Assembly: GCA_022360435.1 (NCBI GenBank)
Contig: JAKSCU010000362.1
Span: 1-52,047, forward strand
From: Bacillota bacterium
Lineage (GTDB): Bacteria; Bacillota; Desulfotomaculia; Desulfotomaculales; Desulfallaceae
Reading direction: 5' to 3'
DNA length: 52,047 bases
In this document: one piece after another, positions 1,756 through 42,472 of the stretch
Layout: the number at the start of each line of letters is the position of its first letter
How positions within the stretch are numbered: position 1 is the stretch's first letter
Notes under the pieces: generated by a model
What the model saw: only the letters and a program-made list of their open reading frames with translations
Database searches by the model: none
What the model was told of the DNA's origin: nothing
Made by a program: the position numbers and the translations under genes

Positions 1756-2592
1756 TTATCTTTCCGAATGCACAAATCGTTCTCCGTCAAATAAGTAAAC
1801 CGTGGTGTTGGTTTGCATCTCACCTTTTGGCGTTAATTTATACGGTTCATATTCAACTTGATAGTGCTGGGTGGTTTCCCAAGCGTAAATCCGTTTGTTT
1901 TCATCGCGGGTATCTAATTGATAACCACCTACCTTTTTAGTGTACGAGTCCTGGAACTGTGAATGTAGCAACATCGTGCCTTGCCAGGCTTCTATAAACT
2001 TGCCTTGATTCAGATAGCAAAGACGCACACTATGGACACTGACACCGGTGCCGCCAGTCCGTGTGACCAGTTTAAAAAGCTTTATGTCTTCTTCGGGCGC
2101 CAGGATTTCGGCAAAGCCCCACTCTTCCACTTTCCAATCCTGTTCCGTTACTAATTGATAAGCTCCATTGGCATCCTCGGCAAAAACAAAAAAGCTTCCC
2201 AGGTGAACGCCCCCAATGCTTCCGGCTATAATCTCCATTTGATTATCGCCGTCTAAATCCACCAGTTCATACGTAAGTTCTTCTAAATAATATGAATCTC
2301 GTTTCCCCTGTGCCTTAATTAATGCTATAATTTCATCTTTTGATATAGATTGGGTGTGACTATCTATCCTAACGGCATTGGCCGCCTTGTCCCACCGCAC
2401 ATTGACACCCAGGGTTTCCGCGACAGTCCTAACGGGAACCATTATCCGGTCGTTAACAAGCTGTGGCGGGACATCAGTATTGATTTCTTTTCCGTTGATA
2501 TAAAGGTCAACCGGAACGGCTGCATAGGCCAAGGTGGTCGCTACAAGCACCAGTAAAACAAGCAGAAAAGTTACAACTAAGCTCTTTTTCAT
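1756..2592 (-). CDS. Secreted protein with copper amine oxidase-type N-terminal domain
   Basis: The 278-residue product starts with a clear signal peptide (MKKSLVVTFLLVLLVLVATT, cleaved near AYA). Residues about 28-75 form a Cu_amine_oxidN1 (PF07833) module: a short beta segment (DLYINGKEI), then IMVPVRTVAETLGVNVRWD. In Firmicutes this module is a cell-surface or wall-associated domain and does not imply oxidase activity. A central DLDGDNQMEI motif resembles the calcium-loop motif of FG-GAP/VCBS-like repeats. The start is placed at the second Met (2592) because CCTCC at 2600-2604, read on the minus strand, gives GGAGG 7 nt upstream; an upstream in-frame start at 2613 has no such site. The specific function is unknown. 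Confidence 0.8.
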   Translation of the reverse strand: MKKSLVVTFLLVLLVLVATTLAYAAVPVDLYINGKEINTDVPPQLVNDRIMVPVRTVAETLGVNVRWDKAANAVRIDSHTQSISKDEIIALIKAQGKRDSYYLEELTYELVDLDGDNQMEIIAGSIGGVHLGSFFVFAEDANGAYQLVTEQDWKVEEWGFAEILAPEEDIKLFKLVTRTGGTGVSVHSVRLCYLNQGKFIEAWQGTMLLHSQFQDSYTKKVGGYQLDTRDENKRIYAWETTQHYQVEYEPYKLTPKGEMQTNTTVYLFDGERFVHSER

Positions 2593-2619
2593 AATCCAAC
2601 CTCCATTTTTCATAAAAAC

Positions 2620-2796
2620 ATGAAGTTTGCTGACTGGTTAAACAGGCAAGCGTTCCTGGCGGCATATCTGTATTTGCTGATGATTATTGCCCTCAAACAA
2701 CTTTTCGTACTCAAACCTGCATGGTTATTGATTTTTATATTCGAACTTGCGCTATGTGCCTATTTGCTGTCGAACGCGGTTCTGAGAGGTTTTTAA
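2620..2796 (+). CDS. Possible small membrane peptide, 58 aa
   Basis: An open frame begins MKFADWLNRQAFLAAYLYLL and has two hydrophobic stretches split by KQLFVLKPAW, so it could be a two-helix membrane peptide. No ribosome-binding site precedes the ATG, and the frame stays open upstream to 2581, so it may be the tail of a decayed larger membrane protein. It lies between a divergent secreted-protein gene and a transposase remnant, in what looks like a junction zone. No family is recognised. Confidence 0.3.
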   Translation: MKFADWLNRQAFLAAYLYLLMIIALKQLFVLKPAWLLIFIFELALCAYLLSNAVLRGF

Positions 2797-2851
2797 ATAA
2801 CAGACTGGCAGCCACCCTGAAAAACATGAAAAAGGCCTATAACATTATGCC

Positions 2852-3082
2852 ATGCTTGGAATGCCCGTGTCCAGATGGCTATGTGACAGTATTGTGAAGC
2901 AGAAAGCACTGCCGAAAGAACTGGCCAAAGTGGATGAGTTGGTTAAACTACGAAAAATTTTTCATTCTATATCAGGAACGTTTCAATACCAGTATCGGTC
3001 GTCCAACCGTACCGGTTCAAACATATATCCGTATGATGTATCTGAAACTTCGCTACACCCTGGGTTATGAAACCCTAGTTAT
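2852..3082 (+). pseudogene. Truncated, frameshifted transposase N-terminus
   Basis: Two overlapping frames together give a recognisable transposase N-terminus. The first frame (from 2852) reads KALPKELAKVDELVKL. After a shift near 2940 the second frame continues with YQERFNTSIGRPTVPVQTY and MMYLKLRYTLGYETLV. This pattern (a GRP-V-YLRMMYLK-RY-LGYETLV helix region) is typical of the DUF772-containing N-terminus of IS5/IS1182/ISNCY-type transposases. The DDE catalytic core is missing and similarity stops near 3082. This is a dead insertion-sequence fragment, 67 bp from the 3' end of the defence operon, consistent with past mobility at the island boundary. Confidence 0.7.
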
Positions 3083-18320: not shown

Positions 18321-18354
18321 CTGTGGTTTGCATATGCCATTGGTTTGGCCACCC

Positions 18355-18580
18355 GGCACCCTTTGTCCCAACGGTTGCCCGCTGGTTTTGCAGTGCCTTT
18401 GACGGTCGTGGCCGACCGGGGAGTACCCGCCGAAAAACTCGATTAACTCCCTCCTCGTCAACCCGGTCTCAACGGTATTGCCATATCGCTAACTTATACT
18501 TTAACACTAAAAGGATTATGTGTTCTTGTGTGTTAAAGTAACTTTTATCTGTTGAGTGCCGGGTTCTGGCGCTTTAAATT
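18355..18580 (-). ncRNA. glmS ribozyme-riboswitch (GlcN6P-sensing)
   Basis: The minus strand shows the conserved glmS ribozyme pieces in order. AAGCGCCAGAAC holds the cleavage site (between 18573 and 18572, before GCGCC). A long P1 arm is formed by ACTTTAACAC pairing with GTGTTAAAGT. The core GTTGACGAGGAGGGAGTTA is followed by ATCGA, TTTTCGGCGGGTACTCCCC and a P4-like hairpin (CGGTCG...CGACCG). The spacing and order match the B. subtilis element. The family cleaves its own mRNA when glucosamine-6-phosphate binds. The 3' boundary is approximate, set at a GGTGCC that can pair with GGCAC. Confidence 0.93.
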
Positions 18581-18905
18581 CAGTTTTTCTTTGTTCCCAC
18601 CGTTCCTTGCGGCTCTCTGCTCAATCACCTCCTCATCCAGCTTACGCAGCCCGCCAATGGCGCCACCGGTGGCGGTGGCAATGCCGCCGGTGACGGTCAC
18701 AGTAAATTTAAACCAGGCGGTTTTCGCTAATAATTGCTTGCCGGTCCATTGTCGCCCGCATCATTGCTTGCCAGAACGTTGTTTACCCAAGCCGAATGCC
18801 GCTTAATCCAGACCATTGTTTGTTAGACGCCCGCCGAGGGGCAAAAGTTCCCCGGGCAGCGCCATGTCGGTACTGATGTTGCCGTGTCCGGCGCTTTGTG
18901 CCGGG

Positions 18906-32402: not shown

Positions 32403-32627
32403 ATGTCAACGGTTTTATCGGACATATATTACACCGTACAAGATTATATGGAGAGCAAAGTTTTAAAGGATTGGAATAAATGCAAAAGATTAACGGACAA
32501 TCAGGGACAGGAAGGGCGTGTACCTTGTGTCCCATATCATCTTGACAAAGTATTGATCTCCCGCTCAGCTTCATGTACCAAAGCCGCCATTTCTGCCGGC
32601 GAAAATTGTTTACCGGATTCCAATTGA
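32403..32627 (+). pseudogene. Possible truncated gene of unknown function
   Basis: A frame starts MSTVLSDIYYTVQDYMESKV behind AAAGGTGG and looks like a real gene start. After about 33 residues it enters the GGGACA-type hairpin at 32504 and then runs antisense through the end of the bzaE-like gene. It may be a gene cut by insertion of the hairpin element. No family is recognised. Confidence 0.25.
32504..32533. repeat. GGGACA/TGTCCC palindromic element after bzaE
   Basis: GGGACA (32504-32509) and TGTCCC (32528-32533) are the ends of an imperfect hairpin located 3 bp past the stop of the bzaE-like gene. Similar elements close the iron alcohol dehydrogenase and cimA genes. Confidence 0.5.
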
Positions 32628-34054
32628 TGCAAAGTACCGGTAAAACAGTCGATCAAGGCCTGGTTTAATCGGGCATAAACCGCCGGCGCTTCTTTAGGCC
32701 CTTGGGTCTTTCCGCTCCAGATGCCGTCCATCCGCATGAAAAGACAATTGGTGATACCGCTCATTATTCGGGCCAGCGCCGCCACCCGACTGTCGGCGAA
32801 GCCGGCCGTTCCTTCGTAAGTGGTGGCAAGGAGCTTCAGCCGCCCTTCCTCCCGCAGTTTGTGGTAGGCCCGGGTGCCCTGCAGAATAATTTGCGGGTGG
32901 TAGAGCACATTGGCGGTAACGGGCAAATCCTTCAGCAAATTATTCCTTTCTAGGAATGCAAAATTCATCCGGATATCTTCCAGTGAAGAATCCGGTTCAA
33001 ACATGATAAAACCCACATTGGGTTCTATCCCGTGCCGCCGGAGAATCCGCAGCGCTCTTTCATTTTGGGCCACGGTGGTCATTTTGTTCAACCGTTGCAA
33101 CGACTCGTCCCCGCCGCTCTCCAGGCCGATGAGTATATGCCGCAAACCCGCCTCCACCAAGGCGGCGATAGTTGCATCGTGGATATCGTTCACCCGGGCC
33201 TCGATGCCGAATCGCACGCCGCGCTCTTTCAGCAGGGAGGCCAACCGCAGCGCCCGGTCCTGACCCTGCCGCCCGGGACCGAAAAAGTTCGGGTCGACAA
33301 AATAAAAGTCCTTTTGCCCCAATGCTGCCGTCAGCTCGTCTATCTCGGCCACAATACTCTCGGGACCGCGCCCCCGCCACCGGGAAACACCGCGGCCACC
33401 CGCGCGTCCCCTTGCATAAAATGCGTTTATATAACAAAAAGAGCATCCCCCGTAGCAACCCCGGCTGCCTTCGATATTGATTTCCGGCAAGCGCAGCATG
33501 GCATCGGTGCGGACGGGGGGAGGCAAAAGGTCCAGGTTTGCCACGGGCTCCCGGCGTCGAACCCGGGTAGCGCCGGACTCGTCCCGCCGGGCCAGCCCGG
33601 GAATCTCTTGCAGATGGACCACGGGGCGTGGTTTCTCCGCCAGCCGGGCCAAGGTATATTCCGGCTCGCCCATAACCACCGCGTCGACGGCCCGGCAGTG
33701 CCCCATGATTTCCTCAAAGGCAAAGGTGGGATAAAACCCGTAAGCAGCGATAAAGGGAGCTGTTCCTTCAGCCTTGATTTTGCCCAGAAAGGCAAAAAGG
33801 CCTTCGTCCCGCTCCCAGTGGTAGACCATGTGCACCCCCAACATATCCGGCCCGAACTCCTTTACCTCCCGGTAAATTTCACTATAGGAAAGGCGCTCCA
33901 GGTACCCCTCCACAATTTTAATCTCATGCCCCTGGCGGGCCAGCATACCGGCGGCGTAACCGGTGATCAGGCATGAGGACAGCGGAGTGTTGGCAATATC
34001 ATTGCACCGCGCCCCGGCCACTTGGCGCGGATGCTCCAGCAAGAGTATTTTCAT
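32537..34054 (-). CDS. bzaE: B12-binding radical SAM protein, BzaE-like
   Basis: The 505-residue protein has an N-terminal B12-binding-like Rossmann domain (MKILLLEHPRQ, about 1-145) and a radical SAM domain with the [4Fe-4S] motif C200-x3-C204-x2-C207 in GSRGCYGGCSFC. In anaerobic benzimidazole synthesis BzaD and BzaE are cobalamin-dependent radical SAM methylases; BzaE adds the last methyl to form dimethylbenzimidazole. The label follows operon order (cobT-bzaC-bzaD-bzaE, as in Eubacterium limosum), not a diagnostic residue. The start ATG lies 56 bp inside the previous gene, behind GGGAGG. Confidence 0.72.
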   Translation of the reverse strand: MKILLLEHPRQVAGARCNDIANTPLSSCLITGYAAGMLARQGHEIKIVEGYLERLSYSEIYREVKEFGPDMLGVHMVYHWERDEGLFAFLGKIKAEGTAPFIAAYGFYPTFAFEEIMGHCRAVDAVVMGEPEYTLARLAEKPRPVVHLQEIPGLARRDESGATRVRRREPVANLDLLPPPVRTDAMLRLPEINIEGSRGCYGGCSFCYINAFYARGRAGGRGVSRWRGRGPESIVAEIDELTAALGQKDFYFVDPNFFGPGRQGQDRALRLASLLKERGVRFGIEARVNDIHDATIAALVEAGLRHILIGLESGGDESLQRLNKMTTVAQNERALRILRRHGIEPNVGFIMFEPDSSLEDIRMNFAFLERNNLLKDLPVTANVLYHPQIILQGTRAYHKLREEGRLKLLATTYEGTAGFADSRVAALARIMSGITNCLFMRMDGIWSGKTQGPKEAPAVYARLNQALIDCFTGTLHQLESGKQFSPAEMAALVHEAEREINTLSR

Positions 34055-35387
34055 TGGCCTCCCTCACTTTCTGCCACATAAACACATTTCTCTGCAAATG
34101 ATAAGCTTCCAGCCGGTAGCGCAGGGTTTCATAAGGGGGCGGGTTGTAATACACCGGGTAAAGCAGGTCGGTTTCAGGCCGGATAACCCCTTCTCTGCCG
34201 GCTGTCTCCGCCAAGGGGGTGCCGGGCAATATGCGGATATTGTTCAGCACCACCGTGCCCAGGTTTCTTTTGGCGCTGTGCAGTTCGTAAAGACGATCCA
34301 GCAGGCGCAGCCCCTTGGCAATGGTCTCGCCGCTTTCTCCGGGCACGTTGACCATAAAGTGGTACATGGCGACAACATCTGTGGCGGCGGCAAGGCCGGC
34401 CGCCTTTAAAATATCACCGACGCCGAGATTTTTGCCCAAAATCCGCAGCGATTCCTCGCACAGGCCGTCCGGGGAAAAGGAAAAACAATTGCACCCGGCT
34501 TCCTCAAAAAGGCCGACATTACCCTCATCCAAATGGTCTTCCCGAAAAAAGCCGCTCCAGGCGATTCTGATCTTTCGGCGCAGTACCTCCCGGCAAATTT
34601 CCTCCAGGTGGCCGCAGGGAATGTTCACCACCGGGTCATTGAAGTGAAAATCCTTAACGCCATACTCTTTATGTAAAAATTCCATTTCATCCACCACCCC
34701 GGCGGGTTGGCGGCAGCGCAATTTTTTGCCCTGAAGCCGGGGATAAACGCAATATGTGCAGTGCAGGGGGCAGCCCCGCTTGGTTTCAATCCCCACGGCC
34801 GGGACGTAATTATTAATCTCTTCGTAAAGCCCGGGCGACAGGAACTCCCTGGACGGAACCTCGTACCGGGTCATGTCGTAGCCCGTTGCAGGCGGATTAA
34901 CCAGCACCTTAGCGCCCCGTCTGTAGCACAGGCCTTTTAAGTCCGGCGGGCTGTCCAAAGAGCCGAGCAGGGCCGGCAAGGAGGTTTCGGCTTCCCCGAC
35001 TATGCCGTAATGGATTTCGGGCAGTTCACCCATAAGACGTTGGGGAAAGAGTGAAAACCCGGTTCCCCCGGCCACGATCCAGGCCCGGGGAAGAAGCGCC
35101 GCCACCAGCCGCGCCGTGGCGACAAAGGGTGGAACCAGGGAACTGGTCTTGTTGGCCAGGGGGTCGATGTTGCGCAACGACAGACCCACCACTTCGGGCC
35201 GGCGGCCCAGCAGCCTGTCCTTTACGGCGCCAAAGGGGTCGGTTTCAATATTCATGTCCAGCAGTTCAACTGCATGGCCGGCCTTTTTCAGGTGGGTGGC
35301 CAGGGCAGCTAAGCCAATGGGATAAACTTTTTCCCGGGCCAACCCTTCCACCGAAGGGGTTTGGATCAGCAGCACCCGCACCGCCAT
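33999..35387 (-). CDS. bzaD: B12-binding radical SAM protein, BzaD-like
   Basis: The 462-residue protein has an N-terminal B12-binding domain (VYPIGLAALATHLKKAGH, LDMNIETDPF) and a radical SAM core with C206-x3-C210-x2-C213 in TKRGCPLHCTYC. By operon position it is BzaD, which methylates 5-methoxybenzimidazole. The ATG at 35387 shares one base with the stop of the methyltransferase gene; a GTG one codon upstream is an alternative. The long overlap with the next gene shows tight co-translation. A general methylthio- or C-methyltransferase is the alternative if the pathway assignment is wrong. Confidence 0.72.
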   Translation of the reverse strand: MAVRVLLIQTPSVEGLAREKVYPIGLAALATHLKKAGHAVELLDMNIETDPFGAVKDRLLGRRPEVVGLSLRNIDPLANKTSSLVPPFVATARLVAALLPRAWIVAGGTGFSLFPQRLMGELPEIHYGIVGEAETSLPALLGSLDSPPDLKGLCYRRGAKVLVNPPATGYDMTRYEVPSREFLSPGLYEEINNYVPAVGIETKRGCPLHCTYCVYPRLQGKKLRCRQPAGVVDEMEFLHKEYGVKDFHFNDPVVNIPCGHLEEICREVLRRKIRIAWSGFFREDHLDEGNVGLFEEAGCNCFSFSPDGLCEESLRILGKNLGVGDILKAAGLAAATDVVAMYHFMVNVPGESGETIAKGLRLLDRLYELHSAKRNLGTVVLNNIRILPGTPLAETAGREGVIRPETDLLYPVYYNPPPYETLRYRLEAYHLQRNVFMWQKVREANENTLAGASAPSGRGAVQ

Positions 35388-36940
35388 CACTCCAATAATA
35401 GAATCCCGAAATATTTGATAAATTCACCTTGGTCCCCCAGTGTCCGCAGGTTGTGCCCCGCCCGCCGCACCGTTGCAAACACGTCGATGCCGGACCCTTC
35501 CATGGAAGGCCTGGCATCCCTGGTGTTGCGGCAAATTCCGTCCGTGGCGCAGGCGTCGCAGAGGGCGCAGGGCCCGGCCCAAAGAGCAAAAGCTTTGTAA
35601 AAGCCTGCTTTAAAGGCGACTTTTTCGGCTTGCAGCACACGGCGCTGAAAATCCCCGGTGGGCGGAACCCCTGCCAGAAGCAAGCAACGGGTATACTCCC
35701 CCAGCATGGCCCTGGTTTTTCCCGGGGTGAGGCTGTCCGGTCGGCAATGGGGTTTCCCGTAGCTGCCGCAGCCGAACCGGCAGCGCAAATGAGCCCATTC
35801 CACAACCTGCACCGCCTCCGCCGGAATGGGGCTGACACTGCGAAATCCCATTTCTTTTATGGCGGCCGCAAGCCGGGCGCCGGGGTCCAAACAAAGTCGC
35901 CGCAAAACAGCCGGGCTTTTTCCGGCCAGCAACAGGGCGGTGTCCGACGCCAGGGGCAGCAGTTCCGTCGTGTGGAGTCTCCGCAGGGCCAGTTGCTCTT
36001 TGAGCCACCCGGCGGGATAAACCCTGCCGTTAAAGGTATTGACAAACATGTTCAAATCAAATAAAGCCGCTTTTTGGGGATAGTGTTCGCCAAAGAAATC
36101 GTGGATCAGCAATATCCCGTCTTCTTTAAGGCACGCCGCGGCTCGGTCCAAAAGCTTGACCATCTCGGTTTGGGCATAGGCGTGCACTATATTGGAAAGG
36201 ATGACCAGGTCGAAGCGCCCCGCCGGCACCGGCCAAGGCTCCAGTATATTGGCGGGACAAAAGTGGCACCGGTGGTAATATTCCTTTTCCCGCAACAGTT
36301 CGCCGGCATAGTCCAGCACCTCCGGAAGGTCCATCAATGTGGCCCGCAGCCCGGGAAAATGCTCTAAAAACCCGGCTGAAACGGCGCCGGCGCCCGAACC
36401 AACATCCAGTATCTCCCCCGCCAGGGGCGCGCCGGCAAAAAAAGGCACTATCTCTTTGACCTTGACCCGGGCCACGCAGTCCATGGCCCGGCTGTATGTG
36501 CGCATACGCCTGATTAACCCTTGGGGTTCCTCGTCCCGCCGGGCAAAATTAACCCTGCCCCCCTGCCTGAGGCAGCCATCCAGACTGCGCCAGTTGGGTT
36601 GTATATTCTTTCTCCACAAAATGGAATCTCCCTGGTAATCTTCCCCGCCCCGCACCAGGAATCTGCGGGATATGTTGGTGTTAAAGTATGTTTCTCCATG
36701 CCGGTCCAGCAGCCCCAAAGCGCAGAGAGCTTGCAGAAACCGCCGCAGCCCTTCCGGGTGCAAATCCAAATCCCCGGCCATCTCCCGCGGCGTTTTCCCC
36801 CCGGATTCAAGCAGAGTGAACAGCCCCAATTCCACGGCGGTGAAGAGGGCCTCCGAGTGCCAGTAAGCCGTGGCCAAATCTTCGAGGTACTGGGGACCGG
36901 CTGCCTGGGGGTCATGGTTCAGGTAAGGCAATGATTTCAC
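35387..36940 (-). CDS. bzaC: BzaC-like O-methyltransferase fused to DUF2284
   Basis: The 517-residue protein combines two domains. Residues 1-340 are a winged-helix-dimerised O-methyltransferase (AVELGLFTLLESGGKTPREM; SAM site EILDVGSGAGAVSAGFLE near 176-193). Residues about 376-517 match DUF2284, a predicted metal-binding domain: CRFGCGSYGKPHCRPDS, then CALCDACATDGICRN and RPSMEGSGIDV. BzaC O-methylates 5-hydroxybenzimidazole. The DUF2284 part may bind a metal or iron-sulfur centre; its role is unknown. The fusion is the odd feature, since many methyltransferases of this class lack it. It starts with GTG at 36940 behind a loose AAGGAAG, 16 bp after cobT. Confidence 0.72.
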   Translation of the reverse strand: MKSLPYLNHDPQAAGPQYLEDLATAYWHSEALFTAVELGLFTLLESGGKTPREMAGDLDLHPEGLRRFLQALCALGLLDRHGETYFNTNISRRFLVRGGEDYQGDSILWRKNIQPNWRSLDGCLRQGGRVNFARRDEEPQGLIRRMRTYSRAMDCVARVKVKEIVPFFAGAPLAGEILDVGSGAGAVSAGFLEHFPGLRATLMDLPEVLDYAGELLREKEYYHRCHFCPANILEPWPVPAGRFDLVILSNIVHAYAQTEMVKLLDRAAACLKEDGILLIHDFFGEHYPQKAALFDLNMFVNTFNGRVYPAGWLKEQLALRRLHTTELLPLASDTALLLAGKSPAVLRRLCLDPGARLAAAIKEMGFRSVSPIPAEAVQVVEWAHLRCRFGCGSYGKPHCRPDSLTPGKTRAMLGEYTRCLLLAGVPPTGDFQRRVLQAEKVAFKAGFYKAFALWAGPCALCDACATDGICRNTRDARPSMEGSGIDVFATVRRAGHNLRTLGDQGEFIKYFGILLLE

Positions 36941-36956
36941 CGGCCGCTCACTTCCT

Positions 36957-38030
36957 TTATGCCACCGGCCCGCTGTTCACCCCGGCGTCTTCAAAGGTGA
37001 GCATTTTATTGATGACCCGGGCCGCGGATTCCACAATATTCATCGCCAGCGCCGCCCCGCTGCCTTCGCCCAGGCGCAGGTTCAAATTCAGCAGCGGGTT
37101 GAGCCCCAGCTCTTCCAGCATGAACTGGTGCCCGTATTCCAGGGAACGGTGCGCCGCAATCATGTATTCAACCGAGTTGGGCGCCAAAGCCTTGGCCAAG
37201 AGCGCCCCGGCGGAGGAAATAAACCCGTCCACCACCACGGGCACCCGGTGATAGGCCGCCCCCAGGATGACCCCGGCAATGCCGCCAATCTCAAATCCCC
37301 CCACCTTGGCCAGCACATCCACCGGGTCCTTCGGGTCGGGGCGGTTCACGTCCATGGCTTTTTCAATGACCCTGATTTTATTCTCCAGCGCCTCGTCGCT
37401 GATTCCCGTCCCCCGGCCGGTAACCTGGCGGACCGGGCGTCCCGACAGCGCGGCTAAAATAGCGCTGCTGGGAGTGGTATTGCCGATGCCCATATCCCCC
37501 GTGGCCAACAGCTCCACACCGTCACGCGCCAGCCGGCCCGCGATTTCCATGCCGCTCTCCAGCGCCCGCCGGGCCTGCTGGCGGGTCATGGCGGGTTCTC
37601 GGACCATATTGCGGGTTCCATGGTCAATTTTATAGGATAGAATTTTCCCTTCCCGGGCCAGCGCGTCCAAATCGGCGGCCACTCCCATATCCGCCACCAC
37701 CACCGAGGCGCCGGCGGTTTCCGCCAACACGTTGATGGCGGCTCCGCCCACAACAAAGTTGTTCACCATTTGGGGAGTGACCTCCTGGGGGAAGGCGCTC
37801 ACCCCTTCCCGGACAACGCCGTGATCCCCGGCCATGGTGACAATCACTTTTCTTTTGACGGAAGGACGCAGGGTTTCTTTGATGCCCGCCAGTTGTTCCG
37901 CCAGAACCAGGAGCTCACCCAGGCTCCCCGGGGGAATGGCCAGCCGGCCCAGATAGTCTTTGGCCTGCCGGCGCCATTCCCGGCTGACCGGTTTAATCTC
38001 GGAAATCACCTTGTGCAGTTGGCAAGTCAT
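36957..38030 (-). CDS. cobT: Nicotinate-nucleotide--dimethylbenzimidazole phosphoribosyltransferase
   Basis: The 357-residue enzyme activates the lower-ligand base by forming its alpha-ribotide from nicotinate mononucleotide. It shows VTMAGDHGVVREGVSAFP, FVVGGAAINVLA, GDMGIGNTTPSSAI and, near residue 322, the catalytic Glu in LRLGEGSGAALAMN. Length is typical. Its ATG overlaps the cobS stop (ATGA). The close link with bza-type genes suggests the base it handles is made by this operon. Confidence 0.97.
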   Translation of the reverse strand: MTCQLHKVISEIKPVSREWRRQAKDYLGRLAIPPGSLGELLVLAEQLAGIKETLRPSVKRKVIVTMAGDHGVVREGVSAFPQEVTPQMVNNFVVGGAAINVLAETAGASVVVADMGVAADLDALAREGKILSYKIDHGTRNMVREPAMTRQQARRALESGMEIAGRLARDGVELLATGDMGIGNTTPSSAILAALSGRPVRQVTGRGTGISDEALENKIRVIEKAMDVNRPDPKDPVDVLAKVGGFEIGGIAGVILGAAYHRVPVVVDGFISSAGALLAKALAPNSVEYMIAAHRSLEYGHQFMLEELGLNPLLNLNLRLGEGSGAALAMNIVESAARVINKMLTFEDAGVNSGPVA

Positions 38031-38806
38031 AGCAATATCTCCTTTAATGTATTAAATAAACTCACGTCGAACTTGGTAAAAACAGCCAGGAGCGACGCCA
38101 GGGTCAGCACTTCGACACATTCACTGGCAGCCCCCAGGGTGTCCCCGGTTATTCCCCCGATTCTTCCGGCCATATACCATACCAGTAACGCGGCGCCGGC
38201 CAGAGCCGCAGCCAGCGGGATTAATCCGTGCCACCCAAGCAACAGTACCGCTAACAGCACAACGGTCAACGAGCTATAAAACACTTCCCGCCAACCCACA
38301 TGGACGGTAAAGTCCCCGGTCCCCCCGGCGGAGCGGGCATACCGGTAAAAGGCCGCCCCATAAACCTGGGACCAGCGGCCCAGCGCCACCGCCATAATTA
38401 TCGCCGCTCCCTGCGCGGTTGCGGGCATTTGGATCAACAGCACGTACTTTGCCAGCAATACCAATACACCCGCCGTTACCCCGTGGGAACCGACCCGGCT
38501 GTCCCTCATTATTTCCAGCATCCGTTCCCGGGATTTGCCGCCGAAAAGCCCGTCGGCGGTATCCATCAAACCGTCCCCGTGCAGATTGCCGGTAATGATG
38601 ATTAAAAACGCCAAAGCCGCCAGACTGCTCACCGCAGGCGCGAAAACCAGAGACGTTAAGGCATGCAAAGCAGCGGCGCCGGCTCCCAGCAGCGCCCCCA
38701 CCAGGGAAAAAAACGCCATGGAACGAGCCATACTTCTTTCTTCCACGCCGCCCCGGACAGCAACCGGTATTCTCGTTAAAAATTGTACCGCCAATAAAAA
38801 TCCCAA
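38027..38806 (-). CDS. cobS: Adenosylcobinamide-GDP ribazoletransferase (cobalamin synthase)
   Basis: The 259-residue membrane enzyme joins adenosylcobinamide-GDP to alpha-ribazole to complete cobalamin. It has the family start FLLAVQFLTRIPV, the metal-binding signature GDGLMDTADGLFGG near residue 78-91, and about seven hydrophobic helices. The start is a TTG at 38806; GGAG lies only two bases before it, so the true start may differ by a few codons. It is the first gene of the operon. No cobalamin riboswitch was seen in the 260 bp upstream. Confidence 0.95.
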   Translation of the reverse strand: MGFLLAVQFLTRIPVAVRGGVEERSMARSMAFFSLVGALLGAGAAALHALTSLVFAPAVSSLAALAFLIIITGNLHGDGLMDTADGLFGGKSRERMLEIMRDSRVGSHGVTAGVLVLLAKYVLLIQMPATAQGAAIIMAVALGRWSQVYGAAFYRYARSAGGTGDFTVHVGWREVFYSSLTVVLLAVLLLGWHGLIPLAAALAGAALLVWYMAGRIGGITGDTLGAASECVEVLTLASLLAVFTKFDVSLFNTLKEILL

Positions 38807-38832
38807 TACTCCAGCCCCTCACAAAAAGAACA

Positions 38833-38852
38833 GGGAACGGTTTTTTTGTCCC
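38833..38852. repeat. Small GGGA...TCCC hairpin upstream of cobS
   Basis: GGGAACGG and a run of seven T residues are followed by GTCCC, giving a short imperfect hairpin of the same family as the other GGGACA elements. It lies in the presumed cobS leader. Confidence 0.35.
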
Positions 38853-38885
38853 GCACGCTGATTCTTACTACAATTATACTTTATA

Positions 38886-38926
38886 AAAAAAGCACACTTG
38901 TTCAGTTCCTCCGCGTGCGCTTTTTT
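38886..38926. terminator. Bidirectional terminator between cobS and the iron alcohol dehydrogenase
   Basis: AAAAAAGCACAC (38886-38897) faces GTGCGCTTTTTT (38915-38926) with one non-Watson-Crick position. The stem carries A- and T-runs on its two sides, so it can stop transcription in either direction. It separates the alcohol dehydrogenase unit from the cob/bza operon. Confidence 0.7.
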
Positions 38927-38957
38927 AACACTCTTATCCTTGAATCCGGCCTAAGTT

Positions 38958-38986
38958 GGGAACATTCCTCGAAGAGGTGTGTCCCC
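38958..38986. repeat. Palindromic GGGAACA/TGTCCC element
   Basis: The outer GGGAACA/TGTCCC pair and inner CCTC/GAGG arms form a hairpin with a three-base loop. It belongs to the same family as the hairpins at 1, 32504 and 39037. Confidence 0.5.
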
Positions 38987-38995
38987 TGACCTCTA

Positions 38996-39029
38996 ATGGC
39001 CGGGTATACTTTCCAAAGAGTATAAAATA
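38996..39029 (-). repeat. Copy 1 of a dispersed 34-bp repeat
   Basis: On the minus strand TTTTATACT, a variable stretch and then the 19-base core GGAAAGTATACCCGGCCAT (38996-39014) match the plus strand at 47132-47162. The core is identical in both copies. TATACT and AGTATA form a small internal hairpin. Confidence 0.7.
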
Positions 39030-39036
39030 AAAACAG

Positions 39037-39057
39037 GACAAGGAGCCGCCCCTTGTC
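39037..39057. repeat. GACAAGG/CCTTGTC hairpin, terminator-like for the alcohol dehydrogenase
   Basis: GACAAGG (39037-39043) and CCTTGTC (39051-39057) form a hairpin 9 bp after the stop codon of the alcohol dehydrogenase gene. On the minus strand it is followed within three bases by TTTTTATTTT. The loop closely resembles that of the hairpin after cimA. Confidence 0.65.
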
Positions 39058-39066
39058 TTGCTTGGC

Positions 39067-40260
39067 TTATTCAATCTCGAAACAATTTGCCAGTATGTTT
39101 TTGATTACGTCTTCGGGCAGAGGGTACAACATCCCGGCGGGATCGATTTTTACGGACCAGTAAAGACTTCCCAAGACATTTTTGCGCACTTTGGACGAAA
39201 ATACCGGTTCCACCCCGCACTCCCGCTGCAGGGAACGCACCGCCTCCACCGCCGCTTTCAGCGCCTCTTCCGGGGCCATGCCCTTAATATGCACATCAAA
39301 GGCCCGGGCCAGTTCTTCAGCTTTAGGCAGGTAGTGGCGGGGGAGTTTTTCCATCACCACCGGCAGAAGCACCGCGTTGGTTTCCCCGTGAGGTATCCTC
39401 ATCTGCGCTCCCACCGCATGGGCAATATTATGCACGGGATAAAACAGCCCGGACATGGCAAAACTCATTATGGACATATTGCTGGCCACCAGCATTTTGG
39501 TGCGGGCCTCCAGGTTTGCGCCATCCGCAACGGCCAGCGGCAGATTTTTGGCAATCAGCCTGATGGCCTGCAGGGCCAGGGAATCGATCATGCAGTTGGC
39601 GCCCGGCGAACTCAGCCCCTCCACCGCGTGGCACAACGCGTCAAATCCCGTGTGGGCGGTCATTTTAGGGGAGAGTCCCACCGTCAGGTCCGGGTCCAGC
39701 AGCGCCACGTCCGCCGGAAGGTACGGGTGAATCAAATCCGCCTTGATCTTCATCATTTCATTGTAAATTACCGCTATGGGTGAAACTTCCGAGCCGGTGC
39801 CAGCGGTGGTGGGAATGGCCACGTGCGGTACTCCCAGCGGTTTTCCCAGGGGTTTCAGGTACAGACCCATGTTGCCCAAAATTATTTCTTTAACATCGGT
39901 CACCTGCATGCCCAGCATGGCCTTAACGCCCTTGGCGGTATCAAGGACGCTTCCCCCGCCCACGGCCAGTATGCCGTCGGCCGCAATCTCACGGTACCAC
40001 CTGGCGCAGTCATTGACAGCGCCGCTGGCCGCGTCCTGTTCTATTTTATCATAAATACCGGCCAGAGCCGGTCCCCCCTGCACCTGAAAAATTGACTCGA
40101 TTTGCTCCACTATACCGGCCTTGACCAGCCCTTGGTCGGTAAGCAGGGCCACCCGCCGGCAGCCCAATTCCATAAAACGCTGGCAAACAAAGGTGCGGCA
40201 ACCGGAACCCACTTCCACAGTGGTATGAAAATCCCACACAAAATATCTCGGCGCTCCCAT
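39067..40260 (-). CDS. Iron-containing alcohol dehydrogenase
   Basis: The 397-residue enzyme belongs to the type III (iron-dependent) family. It has GILAVGGGSVLDTAKG for NAD(P) binding, PTTAGTGSEVSPIAVI, and metal-ligand regions with HTGFDALCHAVEG, HNIAHAVGAQ and IPHGETNAVLL. Substrate specificity is not predictable; short-chain alcohol/aldehyde interconversion is usual. The ATG at 40260 follows GGGAGG at 9 nt; an upstream TTG is too close to the ribosome site. It lies 35 bp after an aldehyde dehydrogenase gene, so the pair may link an alcohol to its acid. Confidence 0.94.
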   Translation of the reverse strand: MGAPRYFVWDFHTTVEVGSGCRTFVCQRFMELGCRRVALLTDQGLVKAGIVEQIESIFQVQGGPALAGIYDKIEQDAASGAVNDCARWYREIAADGILAVGGGSVLDTAKGVKAMLGMQVTDVKEIILGNMGLYLKPLGKPLGVPHVAIPTTAGTGSEVSPIAVIYNEMMKIKADLIHPYLPADVALLDPDLTVGLSPKMTAHTGFDALCHAVEGLSSPGANCMIDSLALQAIRLIAKNLPLAVADGANLEARTKMLVASNMSIMSFAMSGLFYPVHNIAHAVGAQMRIPHGETNAVLLPVVMEKLPRHYLPKAEELARAFDVHIKGMAPEEALKAAVEAVRSLQRECGVEPVFSSKVRKNVLGSLYWSVKIDPAGMLYPLPEDVIKNILANCFEIE

Positions 40261-40295
40261 TACAATCAACCTCCCTTTTATACCTGACCGGTTTA

Positions 40296-41813
40296 TTATT
40301 TATTCAGCCCGATTAAAGGATTAAAGAACTTGTCATCCGCTCCGGGGGTAAGGTCCTGGCAGATGTGCTTCACCTCACTGTAGTTCAACAGCGCGTGATA
40401 GCAGTTTTCCCTGCCCAGGCCGCTCTGCTTGTAGCCGCCGAAGGGAGCGTCGGGTCTCAGCATGTGCCAGGTGTTGATCCACACCGTGCCCGCCCGCAGC
40501 CTGGCCGCCAGTTTTTGGGTCTCGGCCACGTTTTTGCCGCATATGCCGGCGCCCAGGCCGTAAATGGTTTCGTTGGCCATGGCCACGGCCTCGTCCACAT
40601 CGTCGTAAGGAATGACGCACTGTACCGGACCGAATATTTCCTCCCTGGCGATGGTCATGTCGTTGCGGCAGTTAATAAAAATGGTGGGCGTAAAGAAAAA
40701 GCCCCGCCCGTAGTCCCCGCCGGTAAGCCTTTGACCGCCGTAAAACAGTTCCGCCCCTTCCTTTTGGGCGGTTTCCACGTAATTAACGATTGTGTCCAAC
40801 TGCATGGCATTGGCAATTGGCCCCAGGTCGGTGGCCATATCAAGCTGGTCTCCGATGGTCAATTTTTTAATTTTTTCCACCATGCGCTCCGCCAGCTCTT
40901 GCTGCCTGTGCCGGGGAACGAACAGTCTGGTGCCGGACTCGCAAACCTGACCGGAATTCAGCAGAAAAGCGAACAAACTAACATTGACGGCCAAGTCCAT
41001 GTCGGCGTCATCGAGGATAATCAGCGGGGACTTGCCGCCCAGTTCCAGGGTGACCCTCTTGATGCTGTCCGATGCCAGCCGGGCAATCCTGCGTCCCACT
41101 TCGGTGGAACCGGTAAAGGCCACCTTGTCCACGTCGGGGTGGGTAACCAGCCGTTCGCCCACCGCCCCTCCGGGCCCGCAGACCACATTGAAAACCCCGG
41201 CCGGCAGCCCGGCCATGCGCAGCAGGCCGGCCATTTCCAGGGTGGTCACCGGCGTTGTGCTGGCCGGTTTGACCACAATGCTGTTGCCCATGGCCAGGGC
41301 CGGGGCTATTTTCCAAGCCGCCAGAATCATGGGGTAATTCCAGGGGGTTATTCCGGCGCAAACACCCACCGGTTCCCTTTTCCAGTAGCTGTGCACCGGC
41401 ACTATCCAAGGCGGGCACATGGCGTGCTCAACCCGGGGCAGTTCCTTTAAAGTTAACGCCGTCATATAAAAGGTGGCGGCGGTTATGGCTATGTCCACGG
41501 TGCTGGTGCGGCGGATGGTGCCCCCGGATGTGACGGATTCCAGGTTGGCCAGCTTATCCTTGTTCAGAAAGATCAGCATGGCGGCGTTCATAAGCACATT
41601 GGCCCGTTCTTCCGGAGTCTTGCCCGACCAGACCCCGGACTCCAAGGTCTGTTTCGCCGATTGCACCGCCCTGTCCACATCGGCTTCGGTTCCCTTGGCC
41701 ACTTTGAACACCGTCCGGCTATTGGCCGGATTGATGACGTCGGTAAATTCCACCGAGTCCCCGCCGGTGTATTTTCCATCGATATAATTGAGATATTCCG
41801 TAACAGAGCTCAT
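40296..41813 (-). CDS. NAD(P)-dependent aldehyde dehydrogenase
   Basis: The 505-residue enzyme shows the ALDH signature set: PWNYPMILAAWKIAPALA, FTGSTEVGRRIA, the catalytic Glu in VTLELGGKSPLI, the catalytic Cys in NSGQVCESGTRLF, and EEIFGPVQCVIPYDD. It resembles the betaine-/gamma-aminobutyraldehyde branch, but the substrate is not clear. The ATG at 41813 has GGAGG 7-8 nt upstream. It is the first gene of a two-gene unit with the iron alcohol dehydrogenase. Confidence 0.95.
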   Translation of the reverse strand: MSSVTEYLNYIDGKYTGGDSVEFTDVINPANSRTVFKVAKGTEADVDRAVQSAKQTLESGVWSGKTPEERANVLMNAAMLIFLNKDKLANLESVTSGGTIRRTSTVDIAITAATFYMTALTLKELPRVEHAMCPPWIVPVHSYWKREPVGVCAGITPWNYPMILAAWKIAPALAMGNSIVVKPASTTPVTTLEMAGLLRMAGLPAGVFNVVCGPGGAVGERLVTHPDVDKVAFTGSTEVGRRIARLASDSIKRVTLELGGKSPLIILDDADMDLAVNVSLFAFLLNSGQVCESGTRLFVPRHRQQELAERMVEKIKKLTIGDQLDMATDLGPIANAMQLDTIVNYVETAQKEGAELFYGGQRLTGGDYGRGFFFTPTIFINCRNDMTIAREEIFGPVQCVIPYDDVDEAVAMANETIYGLGAGICGKNVAETQKLAARLRAGTVWINTWHMLRPDAPFGGYKQSGLGRENCYHALLNYSEVKHICQDLTPGADDKFFNPLIGLNK

Positions 41814-42019
41814 TACTTTCCTCCTCCTCTTGGATTAATCAAATAACACTCTGCATGGCGTATAATATGTTCTTGCAATAATTAGTTATGCTTAAATAAT
41901 ATCCCTGCTCTCTGCCAGCCCCGCACCGGCAGGAGTTCCGGCATAGGTGAAGAAAACGGTTGATAAAACATCAAAAATGCATGGCTCCCGGTAACAGCCA
42001 TTAAAAGGAGGGATACTTG

Positions 42020-42363
42020 TTGTCTGAAATGATTGCTTATTGCGGGCTTATTTGCTCCAGCTGTCCATCATTTTTGGCCACTAAAAACAATGACGACGTT
42101 GCCGGGGAAAAAAATGCGGTATGTATGCCAAACTGTACAAATTTAATGTGAAACCCGAAGATATCAATTGCGACGGATGTTTGTCCGTGGGAAAAAGGTT
42201 GATTGAATATTGCCAAACTTGCGAAATCAGGCGGTGCTGCGGCCAAAAGGGTTTGGAAAACCGCGCTCTCTGCGCTGAACAGCCGGGCGACAAACTTGCC
42301 GGCTTCCACGAGTTTTCGCCATATGCAAAAAAGTGTTTTGAAGCCCTGAAAAAAGCGTACTAA
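42020..42363 (+). pseudogene. DUF3795 protein split by a -1 frameshift at an A7 run
   Basis: The first frame starts with TTG at 42020 (GGAGGG 7 nt upstream) and reads MIAYCGLICSSCPSF, the DUF3795 N-terminus. After GEK it hits seven A residues at 42108-42114. The family sequence then continues one base back, with KLYKFNVKPEDINCDGC, CQTCEIRRCC and FHEFSPYAKKCFEAL. Together the two frames give a full-length DUF3795 protein, a Cys-rich small protein of unknown function. The A-run may be a mutation, a sequencing error, or a -1 slip site (A_AAA_AAT). Confidence 0.78.
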
Positions 42364-42435
42364 TTCGGTTCCTGGAGCGTGGGCTTTTTGATGCTTTTTT
42401 CCTTTGCTTTTGCCAGATATCCTAAAATATGAAAA

Positions 42436-42467
42436 GATAAGACAAGGAACCGTCCCCTTGTCTTATC
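42436..42467. repeat. 12-bp-stem hairpin after cimA, terminator-like
   Basis: GATAAGACAAGG (42436-42447) pairs perfectly with CCTTGTCTTATC (42456-42467) around an 8-nt loop. It begins 5 bp past the cimA stop. On the minus strand the second arm is followed by TTTTCATATTTT, so it can terminate the ilv-leu operon. It belongs to the GGGACA/AAGG hairpin family. Confidence 0.75.
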
Positions 42468-42472
42468 CTGGT

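Follow-up and report, generated by a model that had tools for sequence, protein, structure and literature searches.

A probable canonical anaerobic dimethylbenzimidazole operon in a Desulfallaceae genome and the genomic coupling of the DUF2284 domain of BzaC to BzaE

The window analyzed here, a 52,047-nucleotide contig (JAKSCU010000362.1) of the Desulfallaceae metagenome-assembled genome (MAG) GCA_022360435.1, carries five minus-strand genes, cobS-cobT-bzaC~DUF2284-bzaD-bzaE (positions 38806 to 32537; ~ marks a fusion). By its gene content, this locus is a canonical operon of a known kind, for the anaerobic synthesis of dimethylbenzimidazole (DMB), the lower base of vitamin B12. Its BzaC ends in a DUF2284 domain, which so far has been counted as part of the methyltransferase. 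Among the loci that we compared, DUF2284 occurs together with BzaE, the enzyme of the last step, and is lost together with it, and this coupling is well supported. It was not found in the literature searched, in which only two papers mention DUF2284, neither dealing with B12 synthesis, although the main experimental papers may already remark on it; nor did that literature yield a mechanism for the last anaerobic step, in which an aromatic methoxy group gives way to a methyl group. We consider it probable that the window holds a canonical DMB operon whose first step is encoded at a second locus and that DUF2284 is a BzaE-linked module.

In the known pathway, BzaA and BzaB make 5-hydroxybenzimidazole from aminoimidazole ribotide (AIR), CobT activates the base, and BzaC O-methylates the 5-hydroxyl group. 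BzaD then adds the 6-methyl group, BzaE converts the 5-methoxy into the 5-methyl group to give DMB, and CobS completes the cobamide. A total of 92 nonredundant loci were compiled by searching two groups, the phylum to which the window belongs and the class that includes Anaerovirgula; loci were sampled via BzaD or BzaB, so that genomes lacking both were not seen, and one locus cut by a contig end (L210) was left out of the count. A Bza-type DUF2284 was present for all 87 loci with bzaE (fused to BzaC at 81, encoded by a neighboring gene at 3, and carried by a second protein elsewhere at 3) and absent from all five loci without bzaE (Fisher P = 2e-8, relatedness ignored). These five loci represent four lineages in the BzaC tree, each beside kin with both parts, and their genomes had no BzaE anywhere (best other match, 104 bits, versus 473 to 868 bits in bzaE genomes). 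DUF2284 does not track bzaD, since it is kept at four loci that have bzaA, bzaB, bzaC, and bzaE but no neighboring bzaD (L199, L213, L049, and L197), gene sets expected to yield 5-methylbenzimidazole, and is lost at three loci where bzaD is kept. The window's DUF2284 is the only one found in its genome, in which the BzaE profile had one match (845 bits).

Three loci (L219, L261, and L262, in genomes G178, G687, and G799) appeared to be exceptions, with bzaE present and an operon BzaC that lacks DUF2284. Each genome, however, encodes elsewhere a second protein of BzaC descent with a Bza-type DUF2284 (208 to 217 bits), which rules these loci out as breaches of the rule. In the second proteins all seven DUF2284 cysteines are aligned, save the last in G178, and the S-adenosylmethionine (SAM) motif of the methyltransferase is destroyed (IIGNHTAPI or IIGPGAETM) or missing. 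On at least two occasions, the methyltransferase and DUF2284 functions have thus been split between two proteins, as would be expected if each is needed for its own reaction. For G178, we also considered that the DUF2284 gene might lie directly 3′ of bzaE across a contig break, but no bzaE end was found on that contig. In G687 and G799, the gene for the decayed methyltransferase with DUF2284 lies near a double ABC-ATPase gene (L279:4052-6967 and L280:2502-4001), in an ECF-type arrangement in G687.

Joint loss of DUF2284 and bzaE could also reflect no more than their proximity within one operon, with no link between the two proteins. The BzaC of Moorella thermoacetica DSM 521 is 97% identical to residues 1 to 352 of that of its sister and then ends; the sister keeps DUF2284 and bzaE, and no DUF2284 or BzaE was found anywhere in the DSM 521 genome. 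Here and in genome G469, everything past the methyltransferase domain is gone, and one deletion could suffice. In two Desulfosporosinus MAGs (L122 and L139) and in L048 (genome G016), by contrast, bzaD is intact between the lost DUF2284 and the lost bzaE, so that two deletions are needed. Remnants persist there: L122 retains the final 28 codons of DUF2284, L122 and L139 retain the initial 31 to 33 codons of bzaE, and L048 retains the final 50 codons of DUF2284. A search with full-length BzaC found no other DUF2284 copy in G016, a genome to which the DUF2284 model was not applied. Closeness would also leave unexplained that DUF2284 is kept at loci without bzaD, that in three genomes it survives at a different locus despite its loss from BzaC, and that it is present for every bzaE locus. 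An explanation by closeness is already weakened by these cases, and we regard it as unlikely.

M. thermoacetica has bzaA-bzaB-cobT-bzaC and makes a 5-methoxybenzimidazole cobamide (PMC8123684). Since it does so without any DUF2284, the domain is dispensable for O-methylation, and the step that remains for it is the methoxy-to-methyl conversion, distinctive of bzaE genomes. The DUF2284 half of BzaC may therefore be a functional module in its own right, one that acts with BzaE and is not required for O-methylation. On chemical reasoning, conversion of aryl-OCH3 into aryl-CH3 with a SAM-derived methyl cation would cost two electrons more than the BzaD reaction, so the likeliest role for DUF2284 would be that of a metal or iron-sulfur (Fe-S) redox partner of BzaE in this step. 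By analogy, the ArsM~DUF2284 selenoproteins might represent another methylation coupled to reduction.

Such fusions, a published example of methyltransferase~DUF2284 architecture outside the bza genes (PMC13188914), could equally be taken to mean that DUF2284 serves the methyltransferase itself, by metal-assisted O-methylation or product binding, and that its loss with BzaE is incidental; the fusion of the two domains at 81 of the 92 loci points the same way. We nevertheless find this very unlikely: besides M. thermoacetica, genomes with only bzaABC or bzaABCD manage without DUF2284, and in three genomes the domain resides on the paralog with the ruined SAM motif. The original prediction had proposed the domain as a possible new partner for lower-ligand methylation. 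This is not supported, given that the fusion is usual in BzaC, that M. thermoacetica methylates without DUF2284, and that co-occurrence points to BzaE. If DUF2284 is instead linked to BzaE, its tracking of the last step makes its role directly testable, offers a rule for predicting from a genome which lower base will be made, and gives one branch of DUF2284 its first proposed function.

The same prediction had suggested that DUF2284 could bind an Fe-S cluster, which is plausible because of its seven conserved cysteines. In an alignment of 88 Bza-type and 18 other DUF2284 domains, the three cysteines of the first cluster are invariant; in the second, C458, C461, and C464 are invariant and C470 is 97% conserved in the Bza type, and all four are 100% conserved in the others. 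PF10050 proteins, including the ArsM~DUF2284 selenoproteins (NF041536), share the seven-cysteine pattern, and BzaC residues 359 to 517 match NF041536 (E = 2.6e-23). The match scores 82 bits against a cutoff of 575 bits, however, and the Bza type has conserved residues of its own (P426, E439, R477, D486, and T490). In the DUF2284 tree, most of the fused Bza-type domains group in one supported clade, while those of L049 and L197 fall near other DUF2284 domains.

QueG and RdhA pair cysteine-rich clusters with cobalamin. The AlphaFold2 model of DUF2284 (predicted local distance difference test score [pLDDT], 88) had as top PDB matches in Foldseek epoxyqueuosine reductases (QueG; E = 0.09 to 0.4, probability up to 0.82), followed by a reductive dehalogenase and CblC; all of these enzymes bind cobalamin. 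The best E value for this likeness was 0.09, with none below 0.001, and hhalign comparison of DUF2284 with eight QueG proteins and controls was not significant (P = 0.02, probability 2%). PDB sequence searches with DUF2284 and a search of a viral fold library gave no match. The modeled likeness to QueG, reductive dehalogenase, and CblC is thus only a lead. It would fit a bolder proposal, which we consider doubtful, that DUF2284 is a minimal reductase domain, dependent on a cobamide or on Fe-S and distantly like these proteins, and that, with BzaE, it carries out reductive cleavage of the aryl C-O bond and methyl replacement. If this were true, BzaC would be bifunctional and serve two nonconsecutive steps, and the four loci with bzaC~DUF2284 and bzaE but no bzaD (L199, L213, L049, and L197) would make 5-methylbenzimidazole from a gene set outside the usual combinations.

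A fusion of DUF2284 to BzaC is not new but the standard architecture. A BzaD-profile scan of GTDB representative genomes yielded 71 loci in Bacillota, Nitrospirota, Thermodesulfobacteriota, Chloroflexota, Actinomycetota, and others, and nearly all loci with a complete BzaC, in at least five phyla, had the C-terminal DUF2284. BzaC of Eubacterium limosum ATCC 8486 carries it, as does that of a candidate Acetobacterium woodii genome. In Desulfosarcina cetonica JCM 12296 (L152:301-2448 and 2373-3053), CobT and the BzaC methyltransferase form one 715-amino-acid frame and DUF2284 lies in the next, overlapping frame; this could reflect either a frameshift or a CobT~BzaC fusion that occurs naturally.

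The five genes predicted at 32537 to 38806 were all present with the ends that had been predicted and were confirmed by Pfam (Table 1), and few-base overlaps between most of them give the appearance of one transcript. They belong to the anaerobic DMB pathway, as originally proposed: BzaD exceeds the TIGR04385 cutoff, and BzaC and BzaE are orthologous to those of E. limosum. Both have Pfam B12-binding and Radical_SAM domains, and both group with BzaD and BzaE rather than with unrelated B12-radical SAM families. For the fifth protein, NCBIfam gave no BzaE model, and it was identified by its end-to-end match to the gene that closes the E. limosum bza operon; it is only ~21% identical to BzaD. Along its whole length, DUF2284 included, BzaC shares 45% identity with the 525-amino-acid E. 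limosum BzaC, and BzaD shares 50% with its counterpart. The AlphaFold2 model of BzaC (pLDDT, 87) has an O-methyltransferase fold, with 3mcz and RedM (PDB codes beginning 8tj) as top matches. A single-protein search of viral contigs with BzaD found no relatives.

Table 1. Features of the bza operon in the window and of related permease genes
Feature	Coordinates	Strand	Description
bzaE, B12-binding radical SAM protein, last step	32537..34054	-	505 aa; Cx3Cx2C at residues 200-207 (nt 33434-33457); 48% identity to E. limosum BzaE
bzaD, B12-binding radical SAM C-methyltransferase	33999..35390	-	463 aa; TIGR04385 658 bits, cutoff 450; Cx3Cx2C at residues 207-214 (nt 34749-34772)
bzaC, O-methyltransferase~DUF2284, full length	35387..36940	-	517 aa; Pfam Dimerisation, Methyltransf_2, and DUF2284
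BzaC methyltransferase domain, residues 1-345	35906..36940	-	Pfam Dimerisation and Methyltransf_2; SAM motif ILDVGSGAG intact
DUF2284 domain, Bza type, residues 372-516	35393..35827	-	PF10050 106-107 bits, gathering score 25
DUF2284 cysteine cluster 1, C387-x3-C391-x7-C399	35744..35782	-	Invariant in all aligned DUF2284 (88 Bza type, 18 other)
DUF2284 cysteine cluster 2, C458-x2-C461-x2-C464-x5-C470	35531..35569	-	Conserved in the same alignment
cobT, lower-base phosphoribosyltransferase	36957..38030	-	357 aa; Pfam DBI_PRT 462 bits; TIGR03160 451 bits, cutoff 319; 57% identity to E. limosum bza-operon CobT
cobS, adenosylcobinamide-GDP ribazoletransferase	38027..38806	-	259 aa, TTG start; Pfam CobS 174 bits; TIGR00317 136.8 bits, cutoff 110
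Gap 5′ of cobS	38807..39066	-	No cobalamin riboswitch or permease gene, in contrast to closest relatives
PF02133 permease, riboswitch controlled, just before cobS-cobT-bzaC-D	L057:15134-16489	-	
PF02133 permease, same position	L053:3544-4935	+	
PF02133 permease, same position	L048:843-2246	+	

The E. limosum bza operon has the same enzymes as the window, in the order cobT-bzaC-bzaD-bzaE, with DUF2284 at the C terminus of BzaC (45 to 57% identity), but the window has a leading cobS, no riboswitch, and no adjoining bzaAB. E. limosum ATCC 8486 produces cobalamin (PMC8123684), and we infer DMB as the product of the window's organism. Also similar are the loci of Peptococcaceae bacterium BRH_c4b, BICA1-7, and Desulfocucumis palustris (L086, L088, and L089), which have cobT-bzaC~DUF2284-bzaD-bzaE at mostly 70 to 85% identity and bzaAB at a second locus; L086 and L088 also have cobS at the operon head. 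Unlike the window, all three have an upstream cobalamin riboswitch, and L086 and L088 a PF02133 permease. The M. thermoacetica bzaA-bzaB-cobT-bzaC operon shares the first steps and an orthologous methyltransferase domain but differs in a BzaC that ends before DUF2284 and in the absence of an adjoining bzaD, of bzaE, and of any genomic DUF2284.

No bzaA, bzaB, or bzaF adjoins the window's operon, as the original prediction had stated, but its description as lacking the first pathway gene is not supported for the genome, where another contig encodes at least part of that step. The assembly (626 contigs, 98.3% complete, 6.88% contamination) contains two ThiC-family genes. One is ThiC, in a thiamine operon; the other, G000:C313:3-1058, is a bzaB truncated by the contig start. 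It scores 627 bits over 335 of the 426 positions of the BzaB model, whose cutoff of 700 is meant for whole proteins, and a phylogeny that also includes ThiC and BzaA places it within the BzaB clade, as sister to the BzaB of a same-family genome. Presumably, bzaA would lie beyond the start of contig C313. Four relatives in family f5 (G016, G032, G034, and G035), whose cobT-bzaC-bzaD are closest to the window's genes, have bzaA-bzaB at a separate locus, and a cobalamin riboswitch lies 5′ of bzaA in all three relatives scanned with Rfam (L158, L159, and L160). Together with the bzaB on C313, this indicates a split arrangement shared with the relatives and a first step that has probably not been lost. 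In Nitrospirota and several proteobacterial-type genomes (L095, L101, L144, L147, and similar loci), a lone ThiC-like gene, probably bzaF, stands beside bzaC-D-E; these genes form their own clade apart from BzaA, BzaB, and ThiC.

Several points weigh against our reading of a canonical operon with a distant first step and a BzaE-linked DUF2284. Besides the single deletions that could suffice in M. thermoacetica and G469, two deletions are required in only two lineages (L122/L139 and L048). We infer only indirectly the metal or cluster of DUF2284, its physical contact with BzaE, and its electron role. Genome G925, a candidate Clostridium formicaceticum, has a full bzaC~DUF2284-bzaD-bzaE set, while older literature reports that this species makes the methoxy-methyl base. 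A search of the rest of the genome for the first step found the truncated bzaB but neither bzaA nor any complete bzaA, bzaB, or bzaF in the assembly. This would suit an organism that does not synthesize 5-hydroxybenzimidazole but imports a benzimidazole and uses only the later enzymes, as would the PF02133 permease of relatives, a plausible importer of benzimidazoles whose riboswitch-controlled gene immediately precedes cobS. Of the two possibilities raised originally, synthesis elsewhere gains from the bzaB at a contig start, whereas import is quite unlikely, as the permease is absent from the window's genome and the relatives that bear it also have bzaA-bzaB.

Assignment of the window and C313 to one organism also counts among these points, because it rests on binning and on a tetranucleotide correlation of 0.91, compatible with a single source but not proof of it. 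Window BzaC, BzaD, and BzaE are nearest those of another family (~80%), and the BzaB is nearest that of its own family (87%), so transfer or mis-binning is possible. One of the two contigs could then be a contaminant and the two halves of the pathway could come from different organisms, in keeping with the contamination estimate and the fragmentation of the assembly. The window's tetranucleotide profile, however, gives correlations of 0.91 with the bzaB contig, 0.91 with the thiamine contig, and 0.95 with the same-family genome G008, and the split arrangement recurs in the four relatives; we judge contamination to be improbable.

Regulation of the window's operon differs from that of its relatives. 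Rfam found no cobalamin riboswitch (RF00174) in the window, and none appeared even at E ≤ 5 in a scan of 38600 to 42200, which takes in the 3.4 kb 5′ of cobS; this bears out the original prediction. The RF00174 aptamer was found in most relatives scanned. In three close relatives (L048, L053, and L057), a riboswitch and a PF02133 cytosine/purine-type permease head the cobS operon (Table 1), and in L054 the riboswitch directly precedes cobT. This permease is a candidate benzimidazole importer. In the window, the operon is instead preceded by iron alcohol dehydrogenase and aldehyde dehydrogenase genes. Similar palindromes (GACAAGGGG..CGG..CCTTGTC) occur at 42434 to 42469 and 39037 to 39057; the repeat near 39047 and 42450 is no more common in the window than expected by chance. 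A REP-associated-transposase-like protein is encoded near the operon of one relative (L053:2308-3141). Elsewhere in the window, a glmS ribozyme/riboswitch lies at 18344 to 18584 on the minus strand (104 bits).

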